A model generated the notes under the pieces. That model did no database searches, was not told the origin of the DNA, and was given only the letters and a program-made list of their open reading frames with translations. The position numbers and the translations under genes are program-made. Of a DNA stretch of 64,000 bases, positions 13,390 through 37,126 are shown piece after piece; within the stretch, counting starts at the first letter, position 1, and every line of letters begins with the position of its first letter. Where the stretch lies: contig NZ_CP019646.1 in NCBI RefSeq assembly GCF_001999965.1, forward strand, positions 1,178,001 to 1,242,000. The letters run 5' to 3'. Source of the stretch: Limihaloglobus sulfuriphilus. GTDB lineage: Bacteria; Planctomycetota; Phycisphaerae; Sedimentisphaerales; Sedimentisphaeraceae.

Positions 13390-15153
13390 ATGCAAATCAC
13401 CTGCCAAAAAACTATTCTTGCCGTTCTTTTAGCCTTCTCATCTGCAGGCCTTTTTGCCGCAAATGTGACAACATTAAACGGCACAGACTTTAAGGGAGCT
13501 GACCATTTTCGTGATATAGTACAGGACCGCCAGAATGTCGGCAGTGTGTACCCTGTTGAAAGCAAAAGGAACACACTTACAGCTGAATTCGAATTAGAAC
13601 CCTCTGCTGATAATTTTTTCGTATATATAAACGGCAGTTATTACAAAAACCCTCAGAAACACTCAGTAAACTTCTGCATCAACGAAACATCATTTTACAA
13701 AGGCAATACAAAGTTTTCAAACGGTAAATGGAGCTGGGAAACTTTTACCGTTTCATCTGATGTACTAACCGAAAAAAACACAATTAAACTTGAAAACCTC
13801 GAAGAAAAAGGCCTTTACGGCGACACCGGCTGCTTCATGGTATGGCAATGCGTAATCTCAGAAAAACCGCTCGAACCCGAAAAACTCCAGCCTGACCCGC
13901 TTGAACAGTTCGGTTTTGACCTTGAAGCAGGGCAATATAATTTATTTACTCAAGGACCAAAACCCGGCTTCAAATTCAGGGGAATTAAAGGGTGGAACTT
14001 CTCTGTAGAGGACTACATGGATATAATACCGTTCATGGCAGAAAATAAAATGAATTTCCTAATGAACTGCTATCTTTCGGTATTCCCAAGAACAGAAAAA
14101 ATGCTCACATTTGAAAACTGCCTCGTGCCGCACCACAACAACTGGTGGGAAGACATAAGTAATTCTGAAAAGGAAGGCTACGAAAAAATAGTGCAGCGAT
14201 GCAGAGAGAATGACATCATATTCTGCTTTTCAATGAATCCGAATTACCATTCTACAAGGGCCTTTGATTATAAAAATGAGCAGGATTTCAACGATCTGCT
14301 CAAGCATTATCTCTGGGCGCAGTCTATCGGTGTCAGATGGTTCAATGTATCTTTTGATGATATAAAAACCGGAATTGATCCCAAGGGTCAGGCGCAGAGC
14401 GTCTCAAGGCTTCTGGGTATTCTGCGGGAGAGAGACAGCGAAGCCCAGATGATTTTCTGCCCAACCTATTATCGCGGCCCTTATAATGACAAGGAGAGGG
14501 AGTATCTTGAAGCACTCAAAGAACACCTGCCGGAAGATACATATATATTCTGGACAGGTGCCGGCAGAAACCAAAGGATTACCAAAGAAGAAGCCGCTGA
14601 GTATAAAGAAGCAATCGGAAGGCGTCTGATCCTGTGGGACAATTATCCGGTAAATAACGGATCAAACACAATGCATTTAGGACCTCTGATCGGCAGGGAT
14701 CCCCAAATCGCCCAAATTGCTGATGGGTACATCTCAAACCCGATGTGGCCGCAGGTTTCATTAAATCAGCTCCCGCTGATAACCGCGGCGGATTTCGCTT
14801 ATAACCCCTGGCAATACGACGCGAGAAAGTCAATAGCCGCCGCGATAAAAAAACTTACAAATTCAGAGAAACAGGCTCAGATTATCAGAGAGCTTGTGAA
14901 CCTCTACCAGGGAAAGATTTATTACAACCGCGAATCAGGATTCAACTCTTTTGTATATAAATTTAATAAGATAACAGAGATAGAGCACTCCAGGACAATA
15001 GCTAAGGCTTTCATAAAACACAGTGAAACTGTACTTGAAGACGCGGCGGAAAACCTGCCTGACGATAAATTCAAATTTGCCAGACAAAGGCTTTCAAGTG
15101 ACTTAAAAGCAATAAAGAGAACCTATGACAGAGTTTACGGCACAATTGAATAA
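13390..15153 (+). CDS. GH84-family beta-N-acetylglucosaminidase
   Basis: The 587-residue exported enzyme has a signal peptide at 1-24, an N-terminal beta-sandwich (about 30-175) and a GH84 catalytic barrel (about 185-480). It is predicted to release terminal beta-N-acetylglucosamine by substrate-assisted catalysis. The support is the paired catalytic aspartates in NVSFDDI (D323 and D324), the ILWDNYPVN strand (416-420) and the block ISNPMWPQVSLNQLPL, which matches the family's NPM-containing segment. A helical region follows to the end. GAGGT lies just before the ATG. The gene is divergent from the GntR regulator and is followed after 65 bases by a transglutaminase-like gene. The likely substrate is GlcNAc-containing host or algal glycan, or cell-wall material; this is inferred from the family. 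Confidence 0.88.
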   Translation: MQITCQKTILAVLLAFSSAGLFAANVTTLNGTDFKGADHFRDIVQDRQNVGSVYPVESKRNTLTAEFELEPSADNFFVYINGSYYKNPQKHSVNFCINETSFYKGNTKFSNGKWSWETFTVSSDVLTEKNTIKLENLEEKGLYGDTGCFMVWQCVISEKPLEPEKLQPDPLEQFGFDLEAGQYNLFTQGPKPGFKFRGIKGWNFSVEDYMDIIPFMAENKMNFLMNCYLSVFPRTEKMLTFENCLVPHHNNWWEDISNSEKEGYEKIVQRCRENDIIFCFSMNPNYHSTRAFDYKNEQDFNDLLKHYLWAQSIGVRWFNVSFDDIKTGIDPKGQAQSVSRLLGILRERDSEAQMIFCPTYYRGPYNDKEREYLEALKEHLPEDTYIFWTGAGRNQRITKEEAAEYKEAIGRRLILWDNYPVNNGSNTMHLGPLIGRDPQIAQIADGYISNPMWPQVSLNQLPLITAADFAYNPWQYDARKSIAAAIKKLTNSEKQAQIIRELVNLYQGKIYYNRESGFNSFVYKFNKITEIEHSRTIAKAFIKHSETVLEDAAENLPDDKFKFARQRLSSDLKAIKRTYDRVYGTIE

Positions 15154-15218
15154 TTATACACTTCAGGACAATGATCCGATTAATCTACAATGATTAATGT
15201 AAACAGAAAGCAAAAAGT

Positions 15219-16277
15219 ATGATTTTCAATATAAAAAATTGGACAGTCACAATAGTTTCAACATTATTATTTTGCAATAACTTTGCTGCCGCCGAAGAAA
15301 AATTATCATTCAGCAGGTACCATCAAGTTTATGGCCCCGTGTATTCTATTGGAATCAAAGACCTTAGTTTTGATAATAAATCTTCTAAAGCAGAAATACT
15401 GCTGTTTTGCACTGAGAAGTACAGATTTTTCTATCAGGGAAAAGAAATACAATTAAACAACGGCATACTTTCTATCCCTTTCGAAATAGCAGACAGTGAA
15501 ACAATCATAAAACAGACAATAGACGTGTTTTGCGCAAAGCAGCAATTCTTCATTGAATTAGAATACTTCTCTCCGAAATATTTTCAGAAGGTAGGAAAAG
15601 ATTATTATAAAGATGGTTATCTTATTTTGAACACGGATTTGCCCAGGTTGTCAACGCCGAAAACTTACCTTGACCTAAATTACAAAAACGAGCTTTTAGA
15701 TTTATTGCAGCCCTACGATTCGAAAGCACCTTTAAATGAACATTTTCTGAACATAGTAAAAAAACAGATTGACATTCTTCATCAGGCTCCCAAACATAAG
15801 GGACCACCCATCGGGACTTTCAAAGACGGATATTTATTTTTAAAAGCTGCAATTGATAGCACCCACAGCTTCAGTTGCAGCGGTAACAGTTTAATGATTC
15901 GCGATTGTTTGCGTGCGGTTGGAATTCCTGCAAGAAATGTCGCAATGGTTTGTTCCAAAAAAGTCAGCAACAACAACCTTGTAATTCTTGAGTCCCAAGG
16001 GCATACGACAAACGAAGCATTTATTAATGGTAAATGGCAGTGGTTTGATGCGTATTTTAATTATCTTTACGCCAAAGACAAAAAAGGAGGGAATTTTCTA
16101 AATACGTGGGAACTAATTGACCACCTTGCAAACCCGCTCAAAAGAGATAGATTATTATTCGGGGTATATGATCCCGAAAAAAAGCTGTATTCGGAGTTAA
16201 CTCTTGATGAATCCGTCAGCCTGAGAAGTACAATCAACAGGTACTTCACTACTGACAAAGATTTGATTTTCAGGTAA
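15219..16277 (+). CDS. Secreted transglutaminase-like (papain-fold) protein
   Basis: The 352-residue protein has an N-terminal signal peptide (about 1-25), a beta-rich region (about 28-140) and a transglutaminase-like core (about 195-290). The core holds the expected triad: Cys220 in FSCSGNSLMIRD, His262 in GHTTNEAF and Asp277 in WQWFDAYF. The segment LRAVGIPARNV is typical of the superfamily. Bacterial members are usually thiol hydrolases or peptidases rather than crosslinking enzymes. The gene follows the GH84 gene by 65 bases on the same strand and may share its promoter. The natural substrate is unknown. A weak GAAAG site precedes the ATG. Confidence 0.72.
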   Translation: MIFNIKNWTVTIVSTLLFCNNFAAAEEKLSFSRYHQVYGPVYSIGIKDLSFDNKSSKAEILLFCTEKYRFFYQGKEIQLNNGILSIPFEIADSETIIKQTIDVFCAKQQFFIELEYFSPKYFQKVGKDYYKDGYLILNTDLPRLSTPKTYLDLNYKNELLDLLQPYDSKAPLNEHFLNIVKKQIDILHQAPKHKGPPIGTFKDGYLFLKAAIDSTHSFSCSGNSLMIRDCLRAVGIPARNVAMVCSKKVSNNNLVILESQGHTTNEAFINGKWQWFDAYFNYLYAKDKKGGNFLNTWELIDHLANPLKRDRLLFGVYDPEKKLYSELTLDESVSLRSTINRYFTTDKDLIFR

Positions 16278-16472: not shown

Positions 16473-17903
16473 CTATTTCGATTTGGCTACACGCTCAACC
16501 TGTTCGAGATATTCCTGAATATTATCACGATATTTGATCTTTTGTGCTCTTCGCAGCAGCGGCAGGGCCTCGCTGTATTTGCCAAGTCGGACAAGCAGCT
16601 GTGCATGCCGAACCATTGCTTCTGCCTCGAAGCCCTCTATGCCCGCGGCCTGCTCATAATAGAAAATTGCCTTATCCGGATTCTCTTTTCGCGCGCTGTG
16701 TTGTCCAAGCAGAATAAGTGCTTCACCATCAAGAGGATCCAGCTCTACTATCTTTTCAAGTATTTCTGCCTCCCGGTCATCGCCAGAGCCCGAGGCAACC
16801 GCAAGCCTGGCACTGAGCTTGAGAACATCAATCTTTGTCTCCTGATCCATATTGTCAGCATAAGTTGTGTTCACAGCATCCAAGAGCCTTGCGGTATGAT
16901 CAAACTGCGATCTGGCCGTAAGCGCTTTTGCCGCACGCAGAGCCCTCTCGAGCGACGAATCCGGATCGAGTTCCATCGCTTCGATATAGAGATCTGCTGC
17001 CAGGCCAAAAAGCCCCTCGTTGATGTAAATATCCCCAAGCAGATTAAGTGTATCTGCCGTAGAGCCGCCGAACTGTCTGACGATTTCAAAGGCCTGGGCA
17101 GCTTCCATAGGTTTAGCTAAACCTATATAAGCATTGGCTTTGAGAAGCCAGAGGTCTGTATTTTCAGGGTTCTCACGTATCAGAAGTCCACACAAAGCCG
17201 CTGCCTCTGAAAATCTCTCTTGTTTGAAGAAGCTGCGGGCAAGCCCCATCTTCCAGTCGAGAGTCAGCGGATCGAGCATAATCGCCATCCGATACGCCGA
17301 TTCCGCCGAGATGCTGTTCTCAATCGACGAATAAGAAAACCCCAGAAGACCGTATGTCACCGCATCACCGCCGCCAAGCTCAATTACCCTTGTAAGCGAA
17401 TCTACGGCCTCGGTATAATCGGCCTTTCTGACATGTATCAGCGCCAGGTTTCGCCATGCCCGCCGAAATTTATCATATTTGGATACCGCTTTTTCGTAGT
17501 ACAGTGCCGCCTCATCGAGCTCTTCGGCCTGGAAATAAATGTTGGCAAGGGTAAAATCGAAGACCGCAGTTGCCGCTTCGTTATCCTCGAGCGCCTCTTT
17601 GAGAACTTTTTCGGCCTGCAAAACATTATCATCGGATATCAGCTGCATTATCTCCAGCAGCTCTTCACGTTCATCTGAGGTTACTGTGGGCTCGATATCT
17701 GTTTCGGCAATATAACTCTGGGTAAACCTGCGCCTGAACTCTTGATCGTTCCAGATATTAAGCTCCATCGGTTTTAGGCCTGAGAATCCTCGTAATTTCA
17801 GCGGGATATCGTCCCGGGCTGAAGCTGTTGCCGTAAAACAAGAAGATAAAACGACTAACAAACAGTAATATTTAACGTGAACACTTGAATAAATAAATTT
17901 CAT
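16473..17903 (-). CDS. Secreted tetratricopeptide-repeat protein of the TonB locus
   Basis: The 476-residue protein has a signal peptide ending near TATASA and then roughly nine to ten TPR-like helical pairs (for example AVFDFTLANIYFQAEELDEA and FRRAWRNLALIHVRKADYTE). It is the last gene of the TonB/ExbBD operon and begins 3 bases after tonB. In the Vibrio TonB2 locus a TPR protein occupies the same place and aids transport; a periplasmic scaffold role is inferred from that parallel. No enzymatic motif is seen. Confidence 0.82.
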   Translation of the reverse strand: MKFIYSSVHVKYYCLLVVLSSCFTATASARDDIPLKLRGFSGLKPMELNIWNDQEFRRRFTQSYIAETDIEPTVTSDEREELLEIMQLISDDNVLQAEKVLKEALEDNEAATAVFDFTLANIYFQAEELDEAALYYEKAVSKYDKFRRAWRNLALIHVRKADYTEAVDSLTRVIELGGGDAVTYGLLGFSYSSIENSISAESAYRMAIMLDPLTLDWKMGLARSFFKQERFSEAAALCGLLIRENPENTDLWLLKANAYIGLAKPMEAAQAFEIVRQFGGSTADTLNLLGDIYINEGLFGLAADLYIEAMELDPDSSLERALRAAKALTARSQFDHTARLLDAVNTTYADNMDQETKIDVLKLSARLAVASGSGDDREAEILEKIVELDPLDGEALILLGQHSARKENPDKAIFYYEQAAGIEGFEAEAMVRHAQLLVRLGKYSEALPLLRRAQKIKYRDNIQEYLEQVERVAKSK

Positions 17904-17906
17904 ACT

Positions 17907-18587
17907 TTAGTTTCCTTTGGGAAAAGTAAACGGGACACGCATTCGGAACCTGACGGGTTTTCCGTTGCGTTTGCCGGGTTCAAATTTCCATTTTTTAATA
18001 GCTTTTAGTGCCGCTTCTTCGAATATTGGATCAGAGGACTTCTGTATAACCGGGTTTTCAACCCTGCCCTGCTGATTAACAATAAATATTATATACACTG
18101 TTCCGGGGGCCCGCCGGCGAAGCTGCGGAGTAAGCACCGGACCGGGCTGATAGACAATCCGCGGCTTCTGGTCGAGATCGGCAACCGAAAAAAGCGCATC
18201 AATATCATTGCCGCTTTTGACGGCATTATCTATCTTCATCGTAAAATCACCCTGCATCCAGCCATCACCCAAGCCTGGATTGAGTGCAACTGTAAGCTGC
18301 TCAAGTGTCATTGGGGGCGCTTCCTCGGTGAGCTCTGGCGGTGTTTCCTCCGGTTCAGGCTCTTCTTCCGGTTCTTCCTCGGGCGGCGGGGGCGGAGCGT
18401 CAAGTTCTGCTGTATCTACCGTCTGGATAGTGAGATCCGCCACAGGAGGTTTTGAGATGGTCTGCATCAGCGGCAGCACAAGAAACAGCGCCAGAGTGAG
18501 CACGGCAGCGCCGCCGCAAGATACAATTCTTGTCAGCAAAGACTTGATAATGGCTATTGGTGTTTTCTTTGAATTGCGAAATGCCAT
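17907..18587 (-). CDS. tonB: TonB-family energy transducer
   Basis: The 226-residue protein has a cytoplasmic N-tail, one membrane helix (about 22-42, LTLALFLVLPL), a Pro/Glu-rich spacer (about 62-95) and a C-terminal TonB domain (about 150-226) with GTVYIIFIVNQQGRV and AALKAIKKWKFEPGKRNGKP. It should carry proton-motive-force energy from ExbB/ExbD to the outer-membrane receptor encoded upstream. It starts 5 bases after exbD with GAGG upstream. The short spacer resembles TonB2-type rather than E. coli TonB. Confidence 0.9.
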   Translation of the reverse strand: MAFRNSKKTPIAIIKSLLTRIVSCGGAAVLTLALFLVLPLMQTISKPPVADLTIQTVDTAELDAPPPPPEEEPEEEPEPEETPPELTEEAPPMTLEQLTVALNPGLGDGWMQGDFTMKIDNAVKSGNDIDALFSVADLDQKPRIVYQPGPVLTPQLRRRAPGTVYIIFIVNQQGRVENPVIQKSSDPIFEEAALKAIKKWKFEPGKRNGKPVRFRMRVPFTFPKGN

Positions 18588-18592
18588 TTAAT

Positions 18593-19006
18593 CTAATCCT
18601 GAGATTTCCTTGTTGCCAGGCTTACCTTTGCGGCGCCTGCAAGTTTTGTTTCATCGATAAGTCTTACCAGCAATCCGGAATTTACTTCCTGGTCTGCCTG
18701 TATAATGACAGGCACTTCCTCCTTCTGGAGAATCCGCTTGACCAGCGGACGGACGCCGCTGAATCCTATCTCTCGCCCGCCGTAAACGACCTCGCCCTTT
18801 TTAGTCAGCGCCAGCAGTATGCTGGTTTTCTCCAACTGTACAGAGCTTGCCGCCTGGGGCTTATCTACCTCAACACCGGTTTCCTCGACAAATGTTGTCG
18901 TAACTATAAAGAAAATCAGCAGAATAAAAACACAGTCCATCAGCGGCGATATATCAATAGCGGCCTCATTGCCTTCCTCTGCCGCGATTTTACGAAAACG
19001 TCCCAT
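18593..19006 (-). CDS. exbD: Biopolymer transport protein ExbD/TolR
   Basis: The 137-residue protein has a short N-terminal tail, one membrane helix starting DISPLMDCVFILLIFFIV with the conserved proton-path aspartate (D24), and a periplasmic ExbD/TolR domain (about 60-137). It works with ExbB to power TonB. AGAGGA precedes the ATG. It lies between exbB (12 bases) and tonB (5 bases) in the operon. Confidence 0.92.
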   Translation of the reverse strand: MGRFRKIAAEEGNEAAIDISPLMDCVFILLIFFIVTTTFVEETGVEVDKPQAASSVQLEKTSILLALTKKGEVVYGGREIGFSGVRPLVKRILQKEEVPVIIQADQEVNSGLLVRLIDETKLAGAAKVSLATRKSQD

Positions 19007-19018
19007 ATCTATATCCTC

Positions 19019-19651
19019 TTAAGCCGAAGCTTTCATGCGAAGCTTTTTATAAAGCTTCTGGTTACATACTGTTTCCACGTGTGCCAAAAATGCCTTGTAA
19101 CGGTCATGCTTTCGTGTCAGGTGATACTGGAAAAACAGCCCTGCAAGTGCCACAACAAGGCCTGTCTCAGTGGTCACAAGTGCCTCTGAGATACCTTCAG
19201 CCACAAGGCCCATGGTCTTATCCCCGCCAGAGCCGGAAGCAAGGGCAGAGAAAGTAGAAAGCATACCAGTTACAGTACCGAGAAGCCCCAGAAGAGGCGC
19301 AATTCCGACGCAAATCTTCATCACCTTCAGGTCTCTCTCGAAGGGTGCGATTTCGGTTGCATGGAGCTCTTCGAAAAATTCTGCGGTATCCTTTATGGTT
19401 TCGCCGCCGGTGACAAAATCCAGCAACCGCCCGATATGGCCGCGGCGATGTTGGGGGTGGTTTATCCAGTGCCGCCATTTATTCTCACGCACCCTGGTAA
19501 AGCCCCTGCCGCTGAGCCGTATTGAAACGTTCAGGCCAAGTGTGAACATCACCAGAGATGTTGCTGCAATGGCTATCATTGCCCACCCTCCGGCCTGCCA
19601 TATTTCTACCGCCTGCTGCAAAAGTGAAGATTGTTCGTATAAATTATTCAT
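19019..19651 (-). CDS. exbB: MotA/TolQ/ExbB proton channel protein (ExbB2-type)
   Basis: The 210-residue protein has three membrane helices: about 20-40, about 115-135 in the conserved block PLLGLLGTVTGMLSTF, and about 150-172 (EALVTTETGLVVALAGLFF). It forms the ExbB pentamer channel around ExbD. It follows the longer TtpC-like paralogue by 31 bases and has the compact form of ExbB2 in Vibrio. Confidence 0.9.
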   Translation of the reverse strand: MNNLYEQSSLLQQAVEIWQAGGWAMIAIAATSLVMFTLGLNVSIRLSGRGFTRVRENKWRHWINHPQHRRGHIGRLLDFVTGGETIKDTAEFFEELHATEIAPFERDLKVMKICVGIAPLLGLLGTVTGMLSTFSALASGSGGDKTMGLVAEGISEALVTTETGLVVALAGLFFQYHLTRKHDRYKAFLAHVETVCNQKLYKKLRMKASA

Positions 19652-19682
19652 TTAGATGCACTTGTTTCGTTATGTTGATCAA

Positions 19683-21140
19683 TTAAGCCGCCTCAGAATC
19701 ATCGTCTTGAGAATCTTTAGCCTTATATGGAGTTTTGCTTATCTGGTTGACAAGCGACATAGCTGCCTGTTCCATCTGATTAACAATGCTCTTGGCCCGC
19801 CTGGAAAGAAAAGCGTGTATAAGCAGCGACGGGATTGCTACGATAAGTCCGAACTCGGTTGTTATAAGTGCCTCCGATATGCCGCCGGAGAGCGTCTTAA
19901 CATCGCCGGAGCCGAAAACTGTTATCAGCTTGAATGTGTTAATAATACCCGTAACCGTACCCAGAAGCCCCAGAAGCGGTGCAGATGCCGCGCAGATAGC
20001 TATGAATGAAAGCCATCTCTCCAACTTGAGACGTGTTGAAAGTATCTGCTCATACATCACCTCTTCAACCAGCTCACGCGGCTCTTTCATATGCTCAACA
20101 CCGGCTCGCAGCATTCTGCCCACAGGTCCTCTGATTTTAGCGGCTTTATCCATTGCGGATTTCTGGTCTGATTTTGTAACGGTATTCATCACCTCGCCAA
20201 GTTTTTTTCGAGAGGGTGTGCGAACCATGGACATGGCTATCCACTTATACACAGCAACCAGCAAGGCAGCCCCGGCCATGGCAAATATAGGGTACATGAC
20301 CACACCGCCCTTCTTGACGTGTTCAATAAACGTCTCATGTGTATCTTCGATCTTGTGCGCATTGCCCAGAGTTGGGTCAAGCGGCAGAAAACCTCTGGAT
20401 TCCTGCACAACCTGTGCCGCGGCGTGTGTATCATCGGGATTTCTGAATTCAATAATCGCCGCCTCAAGAGAACCAAGCCGCTGCTGCGCAGTTCCTGTAT
20501 TTTTCCCGTCATCCGACTGAAAGATGACTACGGGCCCGGCTGCGGCAAACGTGCCGTGATGTATGGAGCCGCTGGAGTCTGAGGCGGTTCCGTCAAACTT
20601 CGTACCGTTCAGGGCGTCATAGAGCCTCTCAAGAGAGAGCTCAAGAATTGCCGCCTGGGCATTATAAACCTGCTGCTGCGAAAGTGCCGTATTCTCTGCC
20701 GCGAGCTTTGCTTCTTCGAGCGGTTTACGGTATCGCTGAATCTCAGAGATGTGAAGCCGTGACTCGAAATTGCGTATATACTCGCCGAGCAGATTTGAAA
20801 GGTAATTGCCCTCATCGCGGCGGGAGTCGATCTCGTTTTTAAGGTTGCTCAAATCCAGCGTCCTGCTGTCAAGAAGCCTTGTGGCCTGCTGATACTCAAG
20901 GCGAACCTCCACCAGCTGAGACTCGAGGTCCCTGAGTTTGCGGCTGAGAGGAATTTTCTCTTGCGCCATCTTTTCACGAAGCAGCGCGAGCTCACTTAGG
21001 CTTTCATCAAGCCGGGCCCTGATGGATTCGGATGCGTTTTCAAAACTCGCTTCCCGGGCGTAACCTGATGCACAGGGTAAAACAACCGCCAGAACCGACA
21101 CTATTATAAACAGGTAATTCTTCATTATAAATTTCCACAT
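19683..21140 (-). CDS. TtpC-like long MotA/TolQ/ExbB protein with N-terminal periplasmic coiled coil
   Basis: The 485-residue protein has a signal peptide (about 1-28), a long coiled coil (about 30-165), a beta-rich segment (about 190-245) and a membrane helix (about 283-303). An ExbB-type channel core follows, with PLLGLLGTVTGIINTFKLI and EALITTEFGLIVAIPSLLI. The arrangement matches TtpC, the extra component of the Vibrio TonB2 system, which is needed for transport. It sits between a DUF3450-like gene and exbB, as in Vibrio-type loci. An alternative ATG at 21125 (MKNYLFIIVSVLA) gives a more compact signal peptide with GGAA upstream. Confidence 0.85.
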   Translation of the reverse strand: MWKFIMKNYLFIIVSVLAVVLPCASGYAREASFENASESIRARLDESLSELALLREKMAQEKIPLSRKLRDLESQLVEVRLEYQQATRLLDSRTLDLSNLKNEIDSRRDEGNYLSNLLGEYIRNFESRLHISEIQRYRKPLEEAKLAAENTALSQQQVYNAQAAILELSLERLYDALNGTKFDGTASDSSGSIHHGTFAAAGPVVIFQSDDGKNTGTAQQRLGSLEAAIIEFRNPDDTHAAAQVVQESRGFLPLDPTLGNAHKIEDTHETFIEHVKKGGVVMYPIFAMAGAALLVAVYKWIAMSMVRTPSRKKLGEVMNTVTKSDQKSAMDKAAKIRGPVGRMLRAGVEHMKEPRELVEEVMYEQILSTRLKLERWLSFIAICAASAPLLGLLGTVTGIINTFKLITVFGSGDVKTLSGGISEALITTEFGLIVAIPSLLIHAFLSRRAKSIVNQMEQAAMSLVNQISKTPYKAKDSQDDDSEAA

Positions 21141-21149
21141 ATTTCTGAA

Positions 21150-21965
21150 TTATTTAATTTCCATTGGCACCTGAACAAACGAGGCCACTTTTTCGTTATT
21201 CAAAATCGCTATTAGTTCGAGCACCTCGACGGCGATATCGTTATCGGGTATCCACTCCCACCTGAGTTCTGAAGCAGTTCCCATACCCGCTACAACGCCA
21301 TTGGCGCTGGCGTAGTAGCCGTGGCTTATGCCCAGATACAAGGCCGTTACCTCAACTGAGTTACCGTAAGGCATAGTACGAATTTCTGTGCTTAGAGTGA
21401 TCTCACTGTTAAACTTATTCACTTCATTTAGGATACCCACAATATTCTGAAAACGCTCAGAAACCGAAAGCTCAGTTTCATCCGGATTCGCGGGCACACG
21501 CTGGCTAAGAGGCTTTACGTGCTCGCTGATAGGGCCCGGTACACGTTTGAGAAGCTCAAGCGTGCGGCTCTCAAGCGTGCTTAGAACACCGTTTAGTGAG
21601 TCCGTTGCATCTTTGAGCCGGTCATTCTCTTTGATCATTTTATCACGTTTCTTGTCCGCTTCGGCGATGCTTTTCTTTGAATCTGATATCTTTTCTTTGA
21701 AAGATTCAATCTCCTGCTCAACGAGTTTAATCCTTTCGGCGAGCATCTCTTTTGAAAGCTCAAAATCACGTTTTTCACTGGATATTATCCGCTCGGTCTC
21801 CACCCACTGCTCGATAAGAGCCTGGGCATTGTCTATCTGAGCGTCTCGGTCCTCAGCCGCAGCAACAGTGGCAAATGCAGCATAAGCAACTAAAACCACG
21901 AAACATGATACTAAACTGATTCCGGGACGATTTTGGCATATTTTATCTTTTGTTTTTTCTCTCAT
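21150..21965 (-). CDS. DUF3450-like periplasmic coiled-coil protein
   Basis: From the ATG at 21965 the protein is about 271 residues, with a signal peptide or membrane helix (about 14-38, VSCFVVLVAYAAFATVAAA), a coiled coil (about 45-130) and a globular domain (about 150-271) containing VTALYLGISHGYYAS and GWEW-like features (LRWEWIPDN). This is the pattern of the DUF3450 family, commonly found next to TtpC-type ExbB genes. A longer in-frame start at 22112 overlaps the receptor gene and is rejected. The stop lies 9 bases before the TtpC-like gene. The function is unknown; a periplasmic adaptor is inferred. Confidence 0.8.
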   Translation of the reverse strand: MREKTKDKICQNRPGISLVSCFVVLVAYAAFATVAAAEDRDAQIDNAQALIEQWVETERIISSEKRDFELSKEMLAERIKLVEQEIESFKEKISDSKKSIAEADKKRDKMIKENDRLKDATDSLNGVLSTLESRTLELLKRVPGPISEHVKPLSQRVPANPDETELSVSERFQNIVGILNEVNKFNSEITLSTEIRTMPYGNSVEVTALYLGISHGYYASANGVVAGMGTASELRWEWIPDNDIAVEVLELIAILNNEKVASFVQVPMEIK

Positions 21966-22047
21966 ATTAAAGTTCCATAAATGTTTTATAAGTAATGTTC
22001 TGTATTTTCTAATGCTCTGGTTTCTTCTTGCAGATATCTGCCGGCCT

Positions 22048-25000
22048 TTAGAAATTCGCTGTGACCGAAACTGAAAATGCCATCCCTTTCGTATAAGAGC
22101 TCTTGGTAACATCGCCGTCTATGTAATCGGAGCGGTAAACTGTGTCGATTTCCGGGTCAAGTAGGTTTTTTGCCTGGAATTTTAGTTTCATGTTTTTGTT
22201 GAGTTTATGCGAAAGGGTAAAATTAAGTGTACCGAATTGCTTTTCATAAACATCTGGGATATAGTTTCCGTTGGACTGACCGGCACCGGCAGCAAGGGTG
22301 TCACCCCGAACAGTGTAAAAAAGGCCCACATTTGTATCTTCAAAGCCGATATGATCAAGATCATAGGTGAGAAAAAGATTGTATAAATGCTCGGGGGCAT
22401 TTGTCATGTCGCGTTTTCTCGTAGGAGCCTGAATATTGGGCTCGTCGAAATCATCCGCCTCATCGTCAGGAAGAGTCACTTCAGACGAGATGAAAGTTGC
22501 GTTTGCGCCTGCGGTAAGTCCTGCCAAATCCTCCCAGAAATTTCCCAGTTCCTGACGAATTTCAAATTCCCAGCCGGATATTTCACCCTCTGGATAATTT
22601 ACCGCGGTGGTGTAGGTGATTCCGGCGTTACGCTGCACGTATTCGATGGGGTCGGTTACATCTTTGAAAAAGTAAGACGCTGAAATAAGACTGCCTTCAT
22701 ACGGTGTAAAATCGCATCTTAAATCGTAATTCTCCAGTGCACTCATTGTCAGCTCCGGGTTACCTACGAACACATCACCGCCGAGATAATCCTGCTGCTT
22801 AACCGGTGTAAGCTCTTTGAATGTCTGGCGGGCCACTGTCTCGCTATACGAGCCTCGTATCTTGACCTCTTCAAACAGGTCATATTCAAAACCGATCGAG
22901 GGGAGTGTATCGTCTTGTGAGAAAAATACATCCGCATCGCCTGGGTTTATAATTACAGAACCGGCACTTCCCGGAGGAATCCATGTCGCATTGGCCTCCG
23001 GCTCTATTATAGTGGAAAGATCGGTATATTCGTGCCTGAGGCCGCCGATAAGGTTCAATTTTGAATCCAGGGGCATATCAACCATATAATAGAAAGCACG
23101 AATCTTTTGTGAGCCGTCATAGTTTACATCAATCAGCGGGTCCTGCATCTCGTGATATTCATCGGGGAAAACCTCACTCCACGAATCGTTCCAGTCTCCG
23201 GCAAACGAATTGTTGGGGTCATTTAGGTTGCTGAATGAATCCTGTGTATATTCTCTGGTCAGCTCGTCATTGAAAAAGCCGAACTTGAAGTAACCTTCGT
23301 TGTCGCTCCACTGCGTAAAGGGCATTTTCAAATTGATGAAAAGCTGGTCGCTGTCTTCCTGTATATTCTTCCATATTCTCTGCAGGTTGCCCAGCCTTGC
23401 GCCGCCGTCGGCTTTGAGCTGGCGGAATTCCGCCGGCTTACCCGGTATGGTGTAAGGCGGTATCCACGGAGGAAAACCCGGATTCAATGTTTCAGGAGAT
23501 GCCGGATACCACACTGAGCCGAACTGCCTCTTATCCGGCTGATCCAGCTCCGCTCCGCTGACCGCGAATGTCCAGTCAAGCTCCGGATTGCTGAAAGAGA
23601 GCATATCGCCGATCTCCCAGTCAGGGTCGAAAAGCCGGTGTGTACCGTTGAACTGAATGGTCTCTGTTGTTCTCTCGGTATATTCCAGCGTTTCGCTTCT
23701 AAGATACGGGGCTTCATCAGGATTGACATCGCCGGGACGGTTATAATCGTAGCCGGGAAAATAATGCTGTTTGCCCCTGGTATCCTCGGCTAGCGTCCTG
23801 ACATCGTCAACCACCTTTGTCTTCATATACATAAAACCTAAAGTGTGGTCTTCATACTCAATGCCTAAAGCACCAAGACTGCTCCACTTCAAAGATTCTC
23901 TGCTTTGTGCAATATCATAAAGCGATGTTTTAAATTTGCCCTGCCGAGGCGTTCCATCATTGTATTGCGGGCTCATGCCGTCTCCTGGGTTTTCAACCCA
24001 GTATTTATCATCTATTTTATCGTCGGTAAAGAAACTCTCCCGTTTGTAATACATGCTGCCAAAGGCACCGATTCTGAAATCCTCATCAAGGTTCCAGCTT
24101 CCCCCGCCGGAAACTGAAAATTTGTAATCCTGGGGTGCACTGTTCTCTCGCGGGCCGACGGCTCCGTTCCAGTCGGTTCCCAGCGGCTCAATGGCCCTGT
24201 CCTGCTCGGAGCTGCCGAAAAAATCAAACCCAGATTCGTCATAATCAAGAAAGCTGCCGTCCGAATCCCTGACACTTGTATTATAGGTGTATTCACCGCC
24301 TATACTCAGGCTGAACTGCTCGGGTATGCTTCTGGTGATAAGATTGACCGCCCCGCCTGAGGCATCTCCCTGCTGATCCGGGGTAAACGTCTTGCTTACC
24401 TGTATGCTTTCAATTATGTCTGCCGGGAACTGATCAAGCTGAACCGCACGCTTGTCCGCATCAGCCGTGGGAAGGCGGACACTGTTGATCTGTGAGTTTA
24501 CATACCTGTCAGGAAGCCCTCGTATGGTTGCATACTTGCCGTCCTGAACAGTGGCGCCTGTAACCAGATTCAGTGCACCTGCCGCATCACTGGCACCTGC
24601 CCGGCTCATCAAATCAGCACTTATTGAATCAAGCAGAACCGGACTTTCCATTCGCAAATCAAGCAGAGCCGCTTCTGTTCCGCCGCCAAACTGGATGTCC
24701 TGAACAATAAACTCCTCCATCTGGGTGAACTCACCTGAAAGAGAAATATCAAGATCTCTAAGCATCCCGGAGACCACTACAACATCGGCCTTTACGACCC
24801 GGTTATAACCGTCTTTGTGAAAGACGAGCGTATATGCACCGGCAGCAACATCGCTGATCAGATAATTACCTTCGTCGGTGGACTCGACTGTCTGTTCTGT
24901 TTCAAGTATTGTAATCTTGACGCCTGGCAGCGGAGCATCGAAGTCTCTGTCTAATATCATACCCCGGATACTGCCGGTCTGATCAGCCGAAAAAGCCAAA

Positions 25001-25050
25001 CCGCTGACAAATAGAATCATTAAAATAAAAAGATATGACAATCTTACCAT
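22048..25050 (-). CDS. TonB-dependent outer-membrane receptor with carboxypeptidase-regulatory-like domain
   Basis: The 1000-residue protein has a signal peptide (1-21) and a CarboxypepD_reg-like beta-sandwich (about 25-108, GSIRGMILDRDFDAPLPGV). A TonB-box-like EEFIV follows (about 112), then a plug (about 128-235 with YATIRGLPDRYVNSQINSV and GGAVNLITRS) and a 22-strand-type barrel ending in SVSVTANF with the terminal Phe. It should move a ligand across the outer membrane using the ExbBD/TonB proteins encoded downstream. The regulatory-like extension recalls Oar-type and SusC-type receptors. The start overlaps the end of the preceding gene by 7 bases. The ligand is not predictable, although the adjacent beta-helix protein is a candidate partner. 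Confidence 0.92.
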   Translation of the reverse strand: MVRLSYLFILMILFVSGLAFSADQTGSIRGMILDRDFDAPLPGVKITILETEQTVESTDEGNYLISDVAAGAYTLVFHKDGYNRVVKADVVVVSGMLRDLDISLSGEFTQMEEFIVQDIQFGGGTEAALLDLRMESPVLLDSISADLMSRAGASDAAGALNLVTGATVQDGKYATIRGLPDRYVNSQINSVRLPTADADKRAVQLDQFPADIIESIQVSKTFTPDQQGDASGGAVNLITRSIPEQFSLSIGGEYTYNTSVRDSDGSFLDYDESGFDFFGSSEQDRAIEPLGTDWNGAVGPRENSAPQDYKFSVSGGGSWNLDEDFRIGAFGSMYYKRESFFTDDKIDDKYWVENPGDGMSPQYNDGTPRQGKFKTSLYDIAQSRESLKWSSLGALGIEYEDHTLGFMYMKTKVVDDVRTLAEDTRGKQHYFPGYDYNRPGDVNPDEAPYLRSETLEYTERTTETIQFNGTHRLFDPDWEIGDMLSFSNPELDWTFAVSGAELDQPDKRQFGSVWYPASPETLNPGFPPWIPPYTIPGKPAEFRQLKADGGARLGNLQRIWKNIQEDSDQLFINLKMPFTQWSDNEGYFKFGFFNDELTREYTQDSFSNLNDPNNSFAGDWNDSWSEVFPDEYHEMQDPLIDVNYDGSQKIRAFYYMVDMPLDSKLNLIGGLRHEYTDLSTIIEPEANATWIPPGSAGSVIINPGDADVFFSQDDTLPSIGFEYDLFEEVKIRGSYSETVARQTFKELTPVKQQDYLGGDVFVGNPELTMSALENYDLRCDFTPYEGSLISASYFFKDVTDPIEYVQRNAGITYTTAVNYPEGEISGWEFEIRQELGNFWEDLAGLTAGANATFISSEVTLPDDEADDFDEPNIQAPTRKRDMTNAPEHLYNLFLTYDLDHIGFEDTNVGLFYTVRGDTLAAGAGQSNGNYIPDVYEKQFGTLNFTLSHKLNKNMKLKFQAKNLLDPEIDTVYRSDYIDGDVTKSSYTKGMAFSVSVTANF

Positions 25051-26264
25051 GGTTCCTTAAGCCCCTGCTTTATTTGGTTTATTTTCACCCATAGCCGGTC
25101 GTCTGGTTCTATTGAATTTACCGCCATCGAAGAGCATGTAGCAGCCAGATCAATCGCACGCGGCCGCGAATTAAGATTAGAGAGACCTTCATCTAAGACT
25201 TTATTGTAAAGAGACAGCGATTTATCGCTTAGACCGACCTGATGACAGGCGAGGGCAAGCGGCCTGAGCGTCCGGGCACGGTCTATATTCAGTATCTTGT
25301 CTTTACCTTTATCAAAAAGATTTACCAGTTCATTGATTTTTTCGTTTACATCGTTGCCCCTGCCTGCCTTATAATTTAACATCAGCAATTCGGCACTAAT
25401 CGGTATAAACTTCTCCAGACTCCAGTTATATCCCTCGACCATTGCCTGATATTCATCAAGCAGACGGACGGCAGCTGCGTTGTCATGATTATCTAAAGCC
25501 GCTGAAACCATCGCAGCCAGAAAATCGATCCGAAGGGACGGGGGCATCTTCTGCCAGCTTTTTCTGATGTTTTTTTCTACTGTTTCACGAAATTCACTCT
25601 GCTGATAATAACGTTCAAAAAGAAAAACATATCTTTTGAGAGCCTTCATTGTCAGATCAAAATCTCCCCTGGCCGATGTCTCTTCAAGAGCAGCGATCCA
25701 TTCTTTGCTTTTTGCTATGTCAAATTCGCCGCAGGTATCCGGACCGCTGCCGATGTGATTATTTTTGGATTTTTCAACTGAATCAATAAGATTTGTGACC
25801 AGTTCTCTGCGCCAGCCGTCTTTTTCATCCACGAGGGCGTGCCGGGCTTTGGCAAGCAGCATATCAGCCTTTTTCTGCCGGCCGTCTGCTGCGAGCTTTG
25901 CTGCTATCTGGGCATAGCAGTGAGCTTTGCGCCAGTTTTGTATTTTATCAGCGAAACGTTCCGCCATTTCAATCCGGCCCGATTCAATACAGGCCTCTAC
26001 AACCGCGGCCTGTGTTTTACATAAGTCTTTTATATGCGGGTGGACAGGAATTGCCGAAGCTGTATCGAAAGCAACGGTTAAAAGTTGAGTCTGTGAGTCC
26101 TCTGCGCTGTTTGATTCTGCACAAATTTCATTGGTACCAATGCAAAACAGAAAAAACATAACCGCGGATAAATACACAAAGAGAAATGCCAGCTCTTTTG
26201 CTTGCATTTGCGTCATATTTTTTGGTTTTTGTATTTTCAACTGAATCATTACGATTTCTTCCAT
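25044..26264 (-). CDS. Membrane-anchored or secreted helical-repeat protein of the receptor operon
   Basis: The 406-residue protein has a hydrophobic segment at about 27-48 (AFLFVYLSAVMFFLFCIGT) and otherwise all-alpha, TPR/SEL1-like repeats (for example AERFADKIQNWRKAHCYAQI and ADMLLAKARHALVDEKDGW). The last codons overlap the start of the TonB-dependent receptor, so it is the first gene of the receptor operon. Internal ATGs near the N-terminus leave the exact start open. No enzymatic motif is seen. By position it may be a periplasmic adaptor for the receptor. Confidence 0.7.
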   Translation of the reverse strand: MEEIVMIQLKIQKPKNMTQMQAKELAFLFVYLSAVMFFLFCIGTNEICAESNSAEDSQTQLLTVAFDTASAIPVHPHIKDLCKTQAAVVEACIESGRIEMAERFADKIQNWRKAHCYAQIAAKLAADGRQKKADMLLAKARHALVDEKDGWRRELVTNLIDSVEKSKNNHIGSGPDTCGEFDIAKSKEWIAALEETSARGDFDLTMKALKRYVFLFERYYQQSEFRETVEKNIRKSWQKMPPSLRIDFLAAMVSAALDNHDNAAAVRLLDEYQAMVEGYNWSLEKFIPISAELLMLNYKAGRGNDVNEKINELVNLFDKGKDKILNIDRARTLRPLALACHQVGLSDKSLSLYNKVLDEGLSNLNSRPRAIDLAATCSSMAVNSIEPDDRLWVKINQIKQGLKEPW

Positions 26265-26367
26265 AAAAATTCATATTTGCCGCAGTCAATTACAGACACG
26301 GCTGAGCTTAATTAACTCAAATAATAACCACAATAATTAGCAATAAATTAGCTAAAGATTATATTTA

Positions 26368-26407
26368 GGTTAGAAATCTAACCAAAGGCACGCCCCTAAC
26401 CGGTTAA
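26368..26407 (-). promoter_or_regulatory. Two palindromes upstream of the receptor operon
   Basis: GGTTAGAAATCTAACC (26368-26383) is a 7-base perfect palindrome around AA, and TAACCGGTTA (about 26398-26407) is a 10-base palindrome sharing TAACC. Both lie 105-145 bases upstream of the 26264 start. They could be sites for a dimeric regulator; no regulator gene is adjacent. Confidence 0.4.
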
Positions 26408-26472
26408 TCCTTACATGAAAGAGCTTTGCGTTATTTTTTAATTTACTTGCCGACTGTATATTTTATTATTAG

Positions 26473-26510
26473 CAAAAAGAAGGCGGCTGAAGAAACATTC
26501 TCCAGCCGCC
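26473..26510 (-). terminator. Rho-independent terminator after the beta-helix/dockerin gene
   Basis: The inverted repeat GGCGGCTG-N13-CAGCCGCC is followed on the minus strand by TTCTTTTTG. It begins about 25 bases after the stop at 26535, so this gene is transcribed separately from the receptor operon. Confidence 0.85.
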
Positions 26511-26534
26511 AATGATCTATTTTAAAACTGAAAC

Positions 26535-28211
26535 TTACATGAGCCAGTCAGCGCTCATGTCAGCCAGGTCAAGCAAATCAACTTCACCGTCTCTGTTTAC
26601 GTCGGTGCGTTTTACGCTTGAGCTGTCAACAAAACCGAAAGCGTCCGCGGCAGTCCAGCCGACGATCCAGTTTTCATTAGCCTTGAAAGCTCCCGCACCT
26701 TTTGCAGCTGCATCGCCTGATGCACAAGGATCGATGTATTCAACCGGCAACATTGTCTTGCCGCCCGCAACAACCGGAGCTCCGCGAACGATGTTCTTGA
26801 TTGGAGGCACAGCAGCGGTAACGTTGTTGTTAGCAGGGTCATAGACGCCTACTGCGTCTGCCTGATCATCTTCGTCAACGGCATTTGCAAAGAATACGCT
26901 GTTTTTGATCTGAGCCAGTTTACCCGCGGGGTCCTGAGCTGTATAAAGAACATCCGGGTGATTGAACGAACCGGGTGCCGGAACAGGACTTATGGCGTTC
27001 ACTGAGGAGGTCTGCGAGGCACTTGTTGCCCAGGTCTGCTCCCAGGTGAGTGTGCCGTTATAGCCGTATCCCTGTGCTCCGTCGCCGTCATCACCGTCAA
27101 AGCGTACAAGCTCTTCACCAATGTTCATCCAGACACAGCTGTCGTACTGCATACGGCAGTTGTCACGCCAGGCTGTTCCGCCGTCACCGGCTGCGGGCTG
27201 GCCTATACAGGTGAAATTACTTATAACACCGGTTGTAACCGGCTGAGCATCTGAATCTTCAGCACCGTCGTGCTCTATACAGTTATCACCGATACCAGAA
27301 CCCTGGCTTTCGTCATTGCTGTAACCCTGAACGATCAGGCCGTAACGTGCTTTGCCGCGCCAGCCTTCATCGATATCAAAGCTGTCATCACCAATGTTCC
27401 AGATATTTACATATTCAAGTTCAACTGTCCCGCCCCAGATCTCAATACCATCGTCAACATTGTTCATAATCTCAACGTGATCAATAGTAGTTCCGCGGCC
27501 GACGCCGCCCAGAGAGAGGCCGTTAAGCTCTTTATTAATGTCAGAGCCCTGTTTTCCGCCGTAACGCAGAGAGAGATAGCTGATTGAACCGCTGTCATCG
27601 TTGTCGTCGTCACCACCGTAGAGCACTTTCGGATCGCCGGGAGCATCGGCGTCAAGACCTTCCATCTGTTTCTTTGTCAGGCCGTCGGGAAATTTGCTGT
27701 TTTCAACAACAGGTGCTGAGTACCCGTCCTGATAACTCTGCTGGGCTCCCTTGTAGTGCGAACCGGAGATCAGGGCCTGTCCCATGATGGCGATGCTGCC
27801 CCACTCGTTGCATACAGGACGCCAGGTACCTGTCTTGGGATCGCCCAAGGTTGTTATAGAGTCAACAGTTCCGTTAGGGCCGTTATTTGTCACAACGCTT
27901 CCCTTCCAGGTGGCAACGTCTTCGGCCGAAGTGAAGATTACCGGCTCATCCTGAGTGCCGTTTACATAGAATTTCGCGCCGCGGGTGATAGCCAGACTCC
28001 CATCATCCTTGACAAATGTCGCAACAACGACACCTGCATCGATTGTCAGGGTTGCGCCCGGCTCAACGTAAACAACGCCTACCAGGTGATACGGTGAGCC
28101 TTCTTTTGTCCAGTGCTCGCTGGCAGCAATGTTACTGTCAACTACAGTACCCGCCATTGATGATGCCAGTGCCGCTCCAATCATACAGATTAGAAATGCG
28201 ATTTTTTTCAT
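26535..28211 (-). CDS. Acidic secreted beta-helix protein with C-terminal dockerin-like module
   Basis: The 558-residue protein has a signal peptide (1-20), a beta-helix core (about 30-520) with VEPGATLTIDAGVVV, ELNGLSLGGVGRGTTIDHVE and NNVDDGIEIWGGTVELEYV, and a C-terminal dockerin-like repeat (about 536-558, DVNRDGEVDLLDLADMSADW). The body is rich in Asp and Gly (YGGDDDNDDSGS), suggesting calcium binding. From memory, the body resembles a widespread exported family often found beside TonB-dependent receptors in other phyla. AAAGGAAAC precedes the ATG and a strong terminator follows. It is probably a well-expressed surface or secreted protein serving as partner or cargo of the receptor; this is inference. 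Confidence 0.82.
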   Translation of the reverse strand: MKKIAFLICMIGAALASSMAGTVVDSNIAASEHWTKEGSPYHLVGVVYVEPGATLTIDAGVVVATFVKDDGSLAITRGAKFYVNGTQDEPVIFTSAEDVATWKGSVVTNNGPNGTVDSITTLGDPKTGTWRPVCNEWGSIAIMGQALISGSHYKGAQQSYQDGYSAPVVENSKFPDGLTKKQMEGLDADAPGDPKVLYGGDDDNDDSGSISYLSLRYGGKQGSDINKELNGLSLGGVGRGTTIDHVEIMNNVDDGIEIWGGTVELEYVNIWNIGDDSFDIDEGWRGKARYGLIVQGYSNDESQGSGIGDNCIEHDGAEDSDAQPVTTGVISNFTCIGQPAAGDGGTAWRDNCRMQYDSCVWMNIGEELVRFDGDDGDGAQGYGYNGTLTWEQTWATSASQTSSVNAISPVPAPGSFNHPDVLYTAQDPAGKLAQIKNSVFFANAVDEDDQADAVGVYDPANNNVTAAVPPIKNIVRGAPVVAGGKTMLPVEYIDPCASGDAAAKGAGAFKANENWIVGWTAADAFGFVDSSSVKRTDVNRDGEVDLLDLADMSADWLM

Positions 28212-28790
28212 AATAGTTTCCTTTCTTAAAAATTAATTACTTTTTAAATTACATTTCAACTTATTTTCAATCAGTCCCTCAATATTACTGCGGATTGAAT
28301 TAGAACAGACAATTATTAGGCGGCTATTAAGTTAATATTAGAAGAATAATAGGATTGACTGGTTTCTTTAAATCCTTATTTGAATTAGAATTATGAATCT
28401 AAAAATTATTTTTTTATCAAAATTACTTTTTTTTGACTTTCCTTTTCCGCGGCAGCTAACGTTCAACTAGCCGTCAGTTAATCAGATTCTTACAAAACGG
28501 GATGTATAAAAAAACAAAGTTTGCCAGAAAAAAAGCGGGGCAAAGGCCCTAAAGAACCTTCACCCCTTAAGCATGAAAATTTATGGCATATTTAATACTT
28601 CACTGCAATAAGTTATCGGTAGAATTACCATATAATAAATTAATCATGGTTTAATTATAGCTGGTATTGTTTGCCGAATATTATTTGAATGTTATAAAAT
28701 TGTTAGTTTAAAAATAAGTTTTGATATGGCAAAACAAATGGTGCATTATTTTCTCAACAACATCTCTCTTGCTTTCAGTGTCTTGCGTAG
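28212..28790. other. AT-rich upstream region without a gene
   Basis: This stretch upstream of the beta-helix gene has long A and T tracts (28405-28440) and no reading frame I can support. It probably holds the promoter of the 28211 gene, but no convincing -10/-35 pair stood out. Confidence 0.5.
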
Positions 28791-33270: not shown

Positions 33271-33783
33271 TTATTCAGACAACGGAAACGTAATATCATT
33301 TATACCCAGCCCATAAAGCATATTGTAAACAAGTGCCAGATGCTGCCATTTAAGGTTGTCGCTGCAATCAAGCTCGACGGGATCCCCAACAGTGCGGCTT
33401 TGTGCCTCAAAGACCTCCAAAAGCATCCTCTCAAAATCTACAAGCCCAGTTTCCGGTTCATCGTCCGGCACGGTCAGCTCGCCATAGCCGCCGATAACAA
33501 CAGCAAGGCCATTGTCGTTTGAGCTCAGCTCTATCAGCAGCGGCTCAATGAGATTAAGCTCACTCGATTGCGAGTCCGACGGCAGAGCCACGGGCAGAAA
33601 ATCTTCTTTAGGTCTGAATTTCGCCGTTACAAGAAAGAATATCAATAACAGAAATATAACATCTATCATCGGCATCATTCTCAGCGAATAGCTTCGCCGT
33701 CTGGATTGTATAAGCCTTGAGAGAACACTCTTAGAAATATGGCCGGATTTTGCGCCTCGTTCTTGTTTTTTACCGTCTTTCAT
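33271..33783 (-). CDS. Orphan ExbD/TolR-type protein
   Basis: From the ATG at 33783 the protein has 170 residues: a basic N-terminal tail rich in Ser/Arg (about 1-33), one membrane helix (MMPMIDVIFLLLIFFLV) with the conserved aspartate (D41), and a periplasmic domain. A GTG at 33798 is a possible earlier start. It overlaps or abuts the AsmA-like gene. No ExbB/TolQ partner is encoded nearby, so it must use one from elsewhere or act differently. It differs strongly from the ExbD at 18593, with a longer tail and acidic insert (VPDDEPETG). Confidence 0.82.
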   Translation of the reverse strand: MKDGKKQERGAKSGHISKSVLSRLIQSRRRSYSLRMMPMIDVIFLLLIFFLVTAKFRPKEDFLPVALPSDSQSSELNLIEPLLIELSSNDNGLAVVIGGYGELTVPDDEPETGLVDFERMLLEVFEAQSRTVGDPVELDCSDNLKWQHLALVYNMLYGLGINDITFPLSE

Positions 33784-33784
33784 G

Positions 33785-36700: not shown

Positions 36701-37126
36701 ATTATCCAGTTGGAATTTTATCGGTGTATCTCGAGTCTCTGCTTTTGGCGATAAATCAAGACCAACACCTTTTATTTTGATATCCCGCAGCCTTAATCTG
36801 CCCAAAAGAGCAGGCATAAGACGGATCTCCGCGTAAAGGCTGTCTATCACACACTTACGGTTGCCCTGGCCGTCGTATAGAGCCATATCAGTAAATTCAA
36901 CAGTTGAAGGCAAATGATAATACGTTGAGCTGACATTAAGCTGATATCCGGTTTTTTCAGCGACAGACTGCCGCAGTCTGTCAGCGGCGATCTGGGCGAC
37001 TTTTGGGCTGAAAGCCAGAGCGGCAAGAATGACAACAACAATAAAGCCCAGTAAGACATACAATGCCTTAACCATCTTCCGTTTAACCGAAAAATGCGTA
37101 TTATCTGTTTTATGTTTTGCTTTCAA
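33785..37126 (-). CDS. AsmA/TamB-like envelope protein
   Basis: The 1113-residue protein has one N-terminal membrane helix (about 18-42, VKALYVLLGFIVVVILAALAF) followed by a very long beta-rich region of repeated short amphipathic strands. The first segment after the helix (ADRLRQSVAEKTGYQLNVS, then STVEFTDMALYDGQ) is typical of AsmA-like proteins. The C-terminal part (about 930-1100, FNFDGTAGG-like and ALASFDDKFDMLQFESYIKG) matches the AsmA-like C-terminal region. Proteins of this superfamily bridge inner and outer membranes and are implicated in lipid transport or outer-membrane assembly. The frame opens at a TTG (37126) two bases after purD; an ATG at 37075 is an alternative. It is followed by an orphan ExbD. 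Confidence 0.78.
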   Translation of the reverse strand: MKAKHKTDNTHFSVKRKMVKALYVLLGFIVVVILAALAFSPKVAQIAADRLRQSVAEKTGYQLNVSSTYYHLPSTVEFTDMALYDGQGNRKCVIDSLYAEIRLMPALLGRLRLRDIKIKGVGLDLSPKAETRDTPIKFQLDNFETSAGDIKTRICNYLEVLPQFYIEDASVTVEQPDGDTGKFNLEYVSCDRNLLTDNLSMSCKFTEEGLLAATELEADVKIDDDCLTASVWGSLTNTGYSLAGNDWRLDKLRLNTQINSEKISLTGSFGSSDISKCSGSFGAEVDFSENLAFKINTDLTNLILTQQPVCNALYYNPENSGKYFGFFGDMLARYQPQGSVDISFDASAAIDNKEKTLSVSIFKQLLSALDIQGKMKLKGISVYYVEFPYELDDVTADVWISNNSGGLNNLKGFHNDVLIEISADTSLDAESGGWTTRAKVTSPNMLLEPDLYFALPGEVQASWDKFEPSGRISLEYNMIEGPGNPNDSRLEAELLGVEACYNKYPYTLKNITGRAAVDNGRITMDNLTAADSRGKICINGLVDSKAGEYDIEIDCENLWMDQEFKNLVPVLKDKTFALSADSYTDLSLIYISSPGKEPVSQTALSIYSENISYRDFTLDNVQAVLVIRGSEILVRKIHGDLDGGPVSIRGRLNPDSEADFRPWDFEYDIRDVSAEVYESINAEKFPIVDFLNNLNPKGRITAAGRISMPEIPAENLFIDSSFSFDKMNINNQYDISNAAGSLFLDNGGLDISDLNFSFIINPETVIPVSVTKATKDLNLDKSPLRFDLKSSGIDLAGLGDAGIFQGGDNLFVTGGVFDINLHECVLKSNGSENLLTFAGVVLGKGVQGDNFSSDQIGLTGSAEYSFLNGFHMVDMTGTAGEFEYKSIPLANSSFDLKMAPDKREFKLNNFSASFGGGSLAADILFPYRDKNKYTFSVNFDKVQVGRLNNKITAGLPQFMLNFDGTAGGNLYIEGVKADGESRKGRLNVSIGSITAEEETLFTMITGGLGALASFDDKFDMLQFESYIKGSRIEMSDIYLADQNYGFYGSGYMDTAGEELNIDLSVYLGRPGQQETGSKSLFNAFGSSIANVKVGGKFDNPTVNTKVMGIGVGL

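Follow-up and report, generated by a model that had tools for sequence, protein, structure and literature searches.

The stretch of DNA analysed here, referred to as the window, covers 64,000 nucleotides of the planctomycete Limihaloglobus sulfuriphilus (contig NZ_CP019646.1, positions 1,178,001 to 1,242,000 of the forward strand). Its minus strand carries, at 16473-28211, nine open reading frames (ORFs) whose place, strand, order and coordinates are those given in the first-pass annotation, which was made from the sequence alone. They encode a secreted protein of the beta-helix class (BH), a helical protein (HEL), a TonB-dependent receptor and the six components of a TonB energisation cassette. 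In the direction of transcription, genes and predicted regulatory elements are arranged as follows:

28299..28341 (-): predicted Pho-box operator and promoter of BH, CTAATATTAAC-TTAATAGCCGC-CTAAT-N10-TCTAAT
26535..28211 (-): BH, secreted protein of the beta-helix class, 558 aa, plain Sec signal peptide, half-dockerin tail
26482..26510 (-): hairpin resembling an intrinsic terminator, 24 nt after the BH stop codon
26336..26373 (-): second Pho-box-like operator, upstream of HEL, four 11-bp units with one mismatch
25044..26264 (-): HEL, predicted all-helical solenoid protein
22048..25050 (-): TonB-dependent receptor, CarboxypepD_reg, plug and barrel; TonB-box candidate EEFIVQDI
21150..21965 (-): DUF3450 coiled-coil protein, TtpB-type, start corrected
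19683..21140 (-): TtpC-type long ExbB, 485 aa, MotA_ExbB at residues 338-458
19019..19651 (-): ExbB, 210 aa, MotA_ExbB domain
18593..19006 (-): ExbD, 137 aa, Pfam 96.7 bits
17907..18587 (-): TonB, 226 aa, TonB_C 64.8 bits
16473..17903 (-): TPR protein, TtpD-type, 476 aa, Pfam TPRs

The DUF3450 gene as first listed (to 22112) overlaps the receptor gene; a start at 21965 (MREKTK...) gives a protein of 271 aa, and the DUF3450 proteins of relatives measure 265-303 aa. Pfam scores are 97.5 bits for this domain and 112.7 bits for the receptor barrel, which stands besides the plug and CarboxypepD_reg. The likeness to the Vibrio TonB2 set with its TPR and DUF3450 neighbours extends to all six domains and to their order, ttpB-ttpC-exbB-exbD-tonB-ttpD, which is shared by Vibrio TonB2 and TonB3 (PMC6957404), and the long TtpC typical of a Vibrio-type system, its ExbB domain placed behind a signal peptide and a coiled coil, is among them. 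Iron transport by Vibrio TonB2 requires TtpB2 and TtpD2, which are encoded by the first and the last gene of its operon (PMC6957404). Joining a receptor to such an operon has a precedent in Vibrio TonB3, as this operon likewise starts with an outer-membrane receptor gene (PMC6957404).

BH contains 32 columns that are invariant across three phyla, many of them acidic. Its best Foldseek matches are mostly right-handed beta-helices, none of them in the PDB with E<=0.001, and sequence comparison with the PDB gave no match. The beta-helix label of the first-pass annotation may thus hold at best as a predicted fold class, whereas the dockerin label falls away: the tail is a half motif (16.5 bits against a cut-off of 22.9), it is missing in several relatives, and a complete dockerin or cellulosome component was rejected. 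The BH of the window has no lipobox; those of Proteobacteria and Bacteroidota carry one. A planctomycete ORF of 1040 aa (L030, genome G003) holds the BH domain twice, and in Alteromonadales (L044, L046, L048) it is present at least twice. HEL does not occur without BH and is confined to planctomycete-type loci; a lipobox is seen in most relatives but is less clear in the window. Its 50 best fold matches are mainly TPR and other repeat solenoids, none with E<=0.001; a SusD assignment was rejected, with no SusD model in Pfam or NCBIfam and no SusD among these 50. Neither BH nor HEL has a match in PHROGs.

The genome is a single contig of 3.87 Mb, 99.97% complete, and our genome-wide statements rest on searches of this sequence. 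It encodes a single true TonB-dependent receptor, a single TonB_C protein and a single DUF3450 protein, all in this locus. A candidate second receptor at 390 kb was rejected, as the long forward ORFs at this position encode only a 249-aa beta-barrel-like and an RHS-like protein. An additional ExbB/ExbD pair at 679 kb comes without TonB. The description of the pathway as dedicated and self-contained is therefore nearly literal for this genome; relatives with the locus have from one to at least six receptor matches each (at most six candidates were scored per genome), and exclusivity is thus a trait of this genome and not of the system.

Conservation and known relatives of the locus

We searched 118 genomes of the order for relatives of BH and read 18 regions around strong matches. 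The nine-gene order recurs in ten of them (L026, L027, L029-L031, L034-L037, L040) and is rearranged in L028, L038 and L041; on short contigs only what fits is visible. Among 246 planctomycete genomes, 31 have a strong BH match. HEL is present in all 31, always within 0.75 kb of BH (217-718 bp by model edges), and in most of them DUF3450 lies within 15 kb, the exceptions being mainly small contigs. The first-pass annotation had staked its case on whether the BH and receptor genes are placed at random relative to ttpC and exbBD in relatives. They are not: the pair travels with these genes in a conserved nine-gene unit, and the idea of a dedicated system survives. Chance does not explain the cluster, as its gene order is repeated in other families, classes and phyla. 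Unrelated genes that happen to be adjacent would fit the permuted orders in L028, L050, L056 and L064; yet the 31/31 co-occurrence of BH and HEL, together with Pho boxes on separated halves of the locus (see below), refutes this explanation and leaves it a vanishingly small probability.

When 84,980 species (80 best loci retained) and plasmids were scanned, the BH-receptor pair appeared in Bacteroidota, Ignavibacteria/Kapaibacteria, Verrucomicrobiota, Alteromonadales, SAR86 and Alphaproteobacteria, and the two genes are nearly inseparable across loci. The partner machinery differs. In Planctomycetota the pair is accompanied by the TonB2 cassette and HEL, in Alteromonas and Pseudoalteromonas by the cassette without HEL, and in Alphaproteobacteria and SAR86 it lies beside gspC-D-E; Bacteroidota have no fixed partner genes. 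Given this distribution, the set is neither rare nor specific to planctomycetes, contrary to the first impression that it is unusual for the phylum, and the pair had been noted for Caulobacter already in 2010 (PMC2996285).

The Caulobacter pair is the closest described counterpart. ElpS (CC0170), whose production is specific to phosphate starvation, is a lipoprotein on the surface of the outer membrane; its gene adjoins that of the receptor CC0171, upstream of gspC-N, and its surface display is independent of the type II secretion system (T2SS) (PMC2996285). Overproduction of ElpS raises phosphatase activity, while ElpS itself is not a phosphatase (PMC2996285). In addition, Caulobacter PhoB controls TonB receptors (PMC11208175). 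As here, a BH-type secreted protein thus stands beside a TonB-dependent receptor under phosphate-starvation control, which in our locus is predicted. The layout BH-receptor-gspC-D-E is found in loci of Sphingomonas, Indioceanicola, Kordiimonas and SAR86 (L043, L042, L126, L103, L113), whose BH are about 28-35% identical to that of the window (Indioceanicola and Sphingomonas: 28-33%, E 4e-28 and 2e-25); the BH model, trained mainly on planctomycete relatives, reaches 2e-157 in Kordiimonas (L126). The likeness to ElpS is drawn from these relatives of the same layout and from the published description of CC0170. Unlike the ElpS locus, the locus studied here has a BH that is no lipoprotein, no adjacent T2SS genes, the extra HEL and a full TonB2-type cassette. 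Plasmid pBGP9 of Alteromonas macleodii (L044) holds phoB-phoR-PstS-like-BH-receptor-DUF3450-TtpC-ExbB-ExbD-TonB-TPR in one run; it differs in having no HEL, a multi-copy lipoprotein BH and an inserted oxygenase gene.

Several variants were seen along the way. In other planctomycetes, BH of a divergent subtype lies 0.4-4.5 kb from DUF3450 and has no HEL as companion (G263:C261, G292:C34, G234:C492, G132:C13, G160:C31), and an 8.4-Mb planctomycete genome (G316; C22, C42, C49) has at least two BH-HEL copies. ExbD and TonB are divergent in the variant cassettes of L059, L063 and L068, and a separate ExbB match is missing beside TtpC. On a contig of the Flavobacteriales metagenome-assembled genome NAT55 (L066) lies a planctomycete-type locus with HEL and PhoB/PhoR, by either mis-binning or transfer.

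Pho-type operators and promoter organisation

The predicted operator of BH consists of three 11-bp YTAAY units followed by a -10 element at 28299-28304. PhoB-dependent promoters have activator sites in place of the -35 element, the same layout as the repeats and -10 element here. Three such units occur in 6 of 19 upstream regions of the order and in none of 200 shuffles, and two units in 10 regions against a shuffle mean of 0.54. In all 10 order-level upstream regions the last repeat, counted from its first nucleotide, is followed at 15 nt by a -10-like hexamer; at this offset the match to TATAAT averages 4.7 of 6, compared with 2.7 or less at any other offset. Across the 3.87-Mb genome, YTAAY-N6-YTAAY-N6-YTAAY is found at three places, before phoB-phoR, before porin-pstSCAB-phoU and before BH, and the control pattern read backwards gives 2 matches. 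The porin gene that heads the Pho-boxed pst operon belongs to Porin_5 (L141:7231-8622), and relatives have homologous porins beside Pho boxes or pstS. The E. coli-type Pho box CTGTCAT-N4-CTGTCAT was discarded in favour of the order-specific repeat, as it is not enriched (7 matches against 5.0 expected).

Eighteen related genomes contain 51 pattern sites, of which 15 fall inside the examined locus regions. Twenty-seven distinct sites were inspected, and for 24 of them the distance to a Pho, pst or porin gene or to a gene of the locus is at most 1.5 kb. Pho boxes of relatives also stand ahead of the DUF3450-TtpC cassette. Even in L144 and L158, where the cassette lies on a separate contig from BH-HEL-receptor, it has its own Pho site approximately 0.1-0.2 kb upstream, which places the motor itself in the predicted Pho regulon. 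Of 105 loci, 20 from several phyla have a gene for a PhoB-type regulator no more than 1.5 kb from the BH-receptor pair. Many of these genes are divergent, with about 0.2 kb between them and BH, and their products score best, yet below cut-off, against PhoB models.

The second operator, before HEL, comes after the terminator-like hairpin located behind BH, and this arrangement suggests two transcription units, BH alone and HEL to the TPR gene. The hairpin recurs at the same place in relatives. Ten of its 15 pairs change on both sides, but as the hairpins had been selected by their stems, this covariation does not serve us as proof; it is the recurrence at one place that counts. The stem word CTGRTGGCAG recurs in the window and in L024-L041 and is rare elsewhere in these loci.

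The first-pass annotation missed the predicted phosphate control, and the operators speak against an iron function like that of the Vibrio system. Uptake of iron, heme or siderophores would agree with the shared six-gene order and with the receptor weakly resembling heme-receptor models (62 bits against a cut-off of 317). However, the best receptor model is the broad TonB-Xanth-Caul family, itself below cut-off (229 vs 310), and the locus is associated with Pho boxes and phoBR rather than with iron genes (Fur boxes were not scanned for). Vibrio TonB2 is iron-controlled and serves several siderophores, whereas the cassette here has Pho boxes, the sole receptor of its genome, BH and HEL. Iron as the default substrate was rejected given the Pho boxes, and we regard an iron-related function as highly improbable.

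A proposed role in phosphorus uptake

Gene content, synteny, the single receptor, the single TonB and the Pho boxes, all established at the level of sequence, lead us to propose that the locus is probably a TonB uptake system of the Pho regulon, serving a phosphorus-bearing ligand during phosphate starvation. In the scheme we infer, phosphate depletion would lead phosphorylated PhoB to bind the 11-bp repeats before BH and HEL and to switch on the block, with the hairpin after BH and the separate promoter for HEL onwards yielding BH in excess over the receptor. BH would leave via Sec and take a position at the cell surface, where HEL, a lipoprotein in most relatives, probably anchors it or couples it to the receptor. 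The ligand may be captured or processed by BH and handed to the receptor, which would be energised only by the TtpB-TtpC-ExbB-ExbD-TonB-TtpD motor of the same block; in the periplasm it might then pass to PstSCAB or to periplasmic phosphatases.

Some observations weigh against this proposal. The repeat pattern was chosen after viewing the upstream regions, which makes the enrichment over shuffles partly post hoc and the genome-wide matches and the -10 spacing necessary as independent checks. An exact three-repeat site lies in the examined locus regions of only 9 of the 18 related genomes, and the PhoB of L. sulfuriphilus, with PhoB as its best model, scores 245.5 bits, below the curated cut-off of 296.2. 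In addition, no phosphatase or nuclease recurs beside the locus in the flanking-gene scan of related loci.

The receptor might also work in the opposite direction. Its layout of CarboxypepD_reg, plug and barrel is that of Myxococcus Oar, which together with its own Ton system secretes the protease PopC (PMC6434023). BH carries a Sec signal peptide of its own and would have to pass the outer membrane as well, it is nearly inseparable from the receptor, and display of ElpS without need of the T2SS leaves room for another route of that protein (PMC2996285). TonB-powered export of BH under phosphate starvation by an Oar-like receptor, with BH acting outside, nevertheless seems unlikely, and more doubtful again is an Oar-like exporter that is conserved with its BH cargo in several phyla and forms the missing outer-membrane route for ElpS-type proteins. 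The layout is not diagnostic because SusC-type importers share it, and exporters and importers are not separable by a sequence feature (PMC6434023). Moreover, the proteobacterial BH are lipoproteins, for which other surface routes exist, and GspD is present above cut-off elsewhere in the genome. Oar differs from the present receptor in its protease partner; none is found here.

Alternatively, the locus could serve the envelope in phosphate starvation without import, BH being a surface structure or signalling ligand and the receptor and TonB acting mechanically or in signalling. This possibility draws on the BH domain being present in two or more copies in many relatives, on the lack of a recurrent degradative enzyme beside the locus, and on ElpS, which only stimulates phosphatase activity (PMC2996285). 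We consider it improbable, given that TonB systems with a plugged receptor normally transport and that Pfam detects no signalling (STN) domain in the receptor.

Around related loci, PhoB/PhoR-type regulators and Sel1 repeats alone recur, and no enzyme does. In the window, the genes for a beta-N-acetylglucosaminidase and a transglutaminase-like protein (13390-16277, +) converge on the end of the locus. At 33271-37126 (-), a YhdP/AsmA-like gene (below cut-off) directly follows a lone ExbD/TolR-like gene (53.8 bits), which has a 738-aa protein without assignment on its other side; this may be a separate envelope lipid-transport unit. Rfam returned one tRNA and no other match.

The BH-receptor pair and its phosphate link have already been noted in Caulobacter, and the cassette is Vibrio-like. 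The following points appear to be new: the predicted Pho operator covers the entire unit, the motor included; the pair occurs across phyla alongside partner machinery of three kinds; HEL is part of the locus; and the only TonB system of a genome would be Pho-controlled. We found no earlier description of a Pho-controlled TonB2 cassette in the open-access literature. The Pho box of the order can now be defined as at least three YTAAY spaced at 11 bp, followed by N10 and a -10 element. ElpS/CC0171 beside the T2SS, the phoBR-linked sets of Alteromonas and the BH-receptor pairs of Bacteroidota may now be joined as one phosphate-starvation module, in which the role of ElpS-type proteins becomes testable. 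TonB2/TtpC motors are known from iron uptake. A complete TtpC motor and the only receptor of a genome under a predicted Pho operator would tie this iron-type motor to phosphorus scavenging, and the bacterium therefore appears to keep TonB solely for phosphorus.

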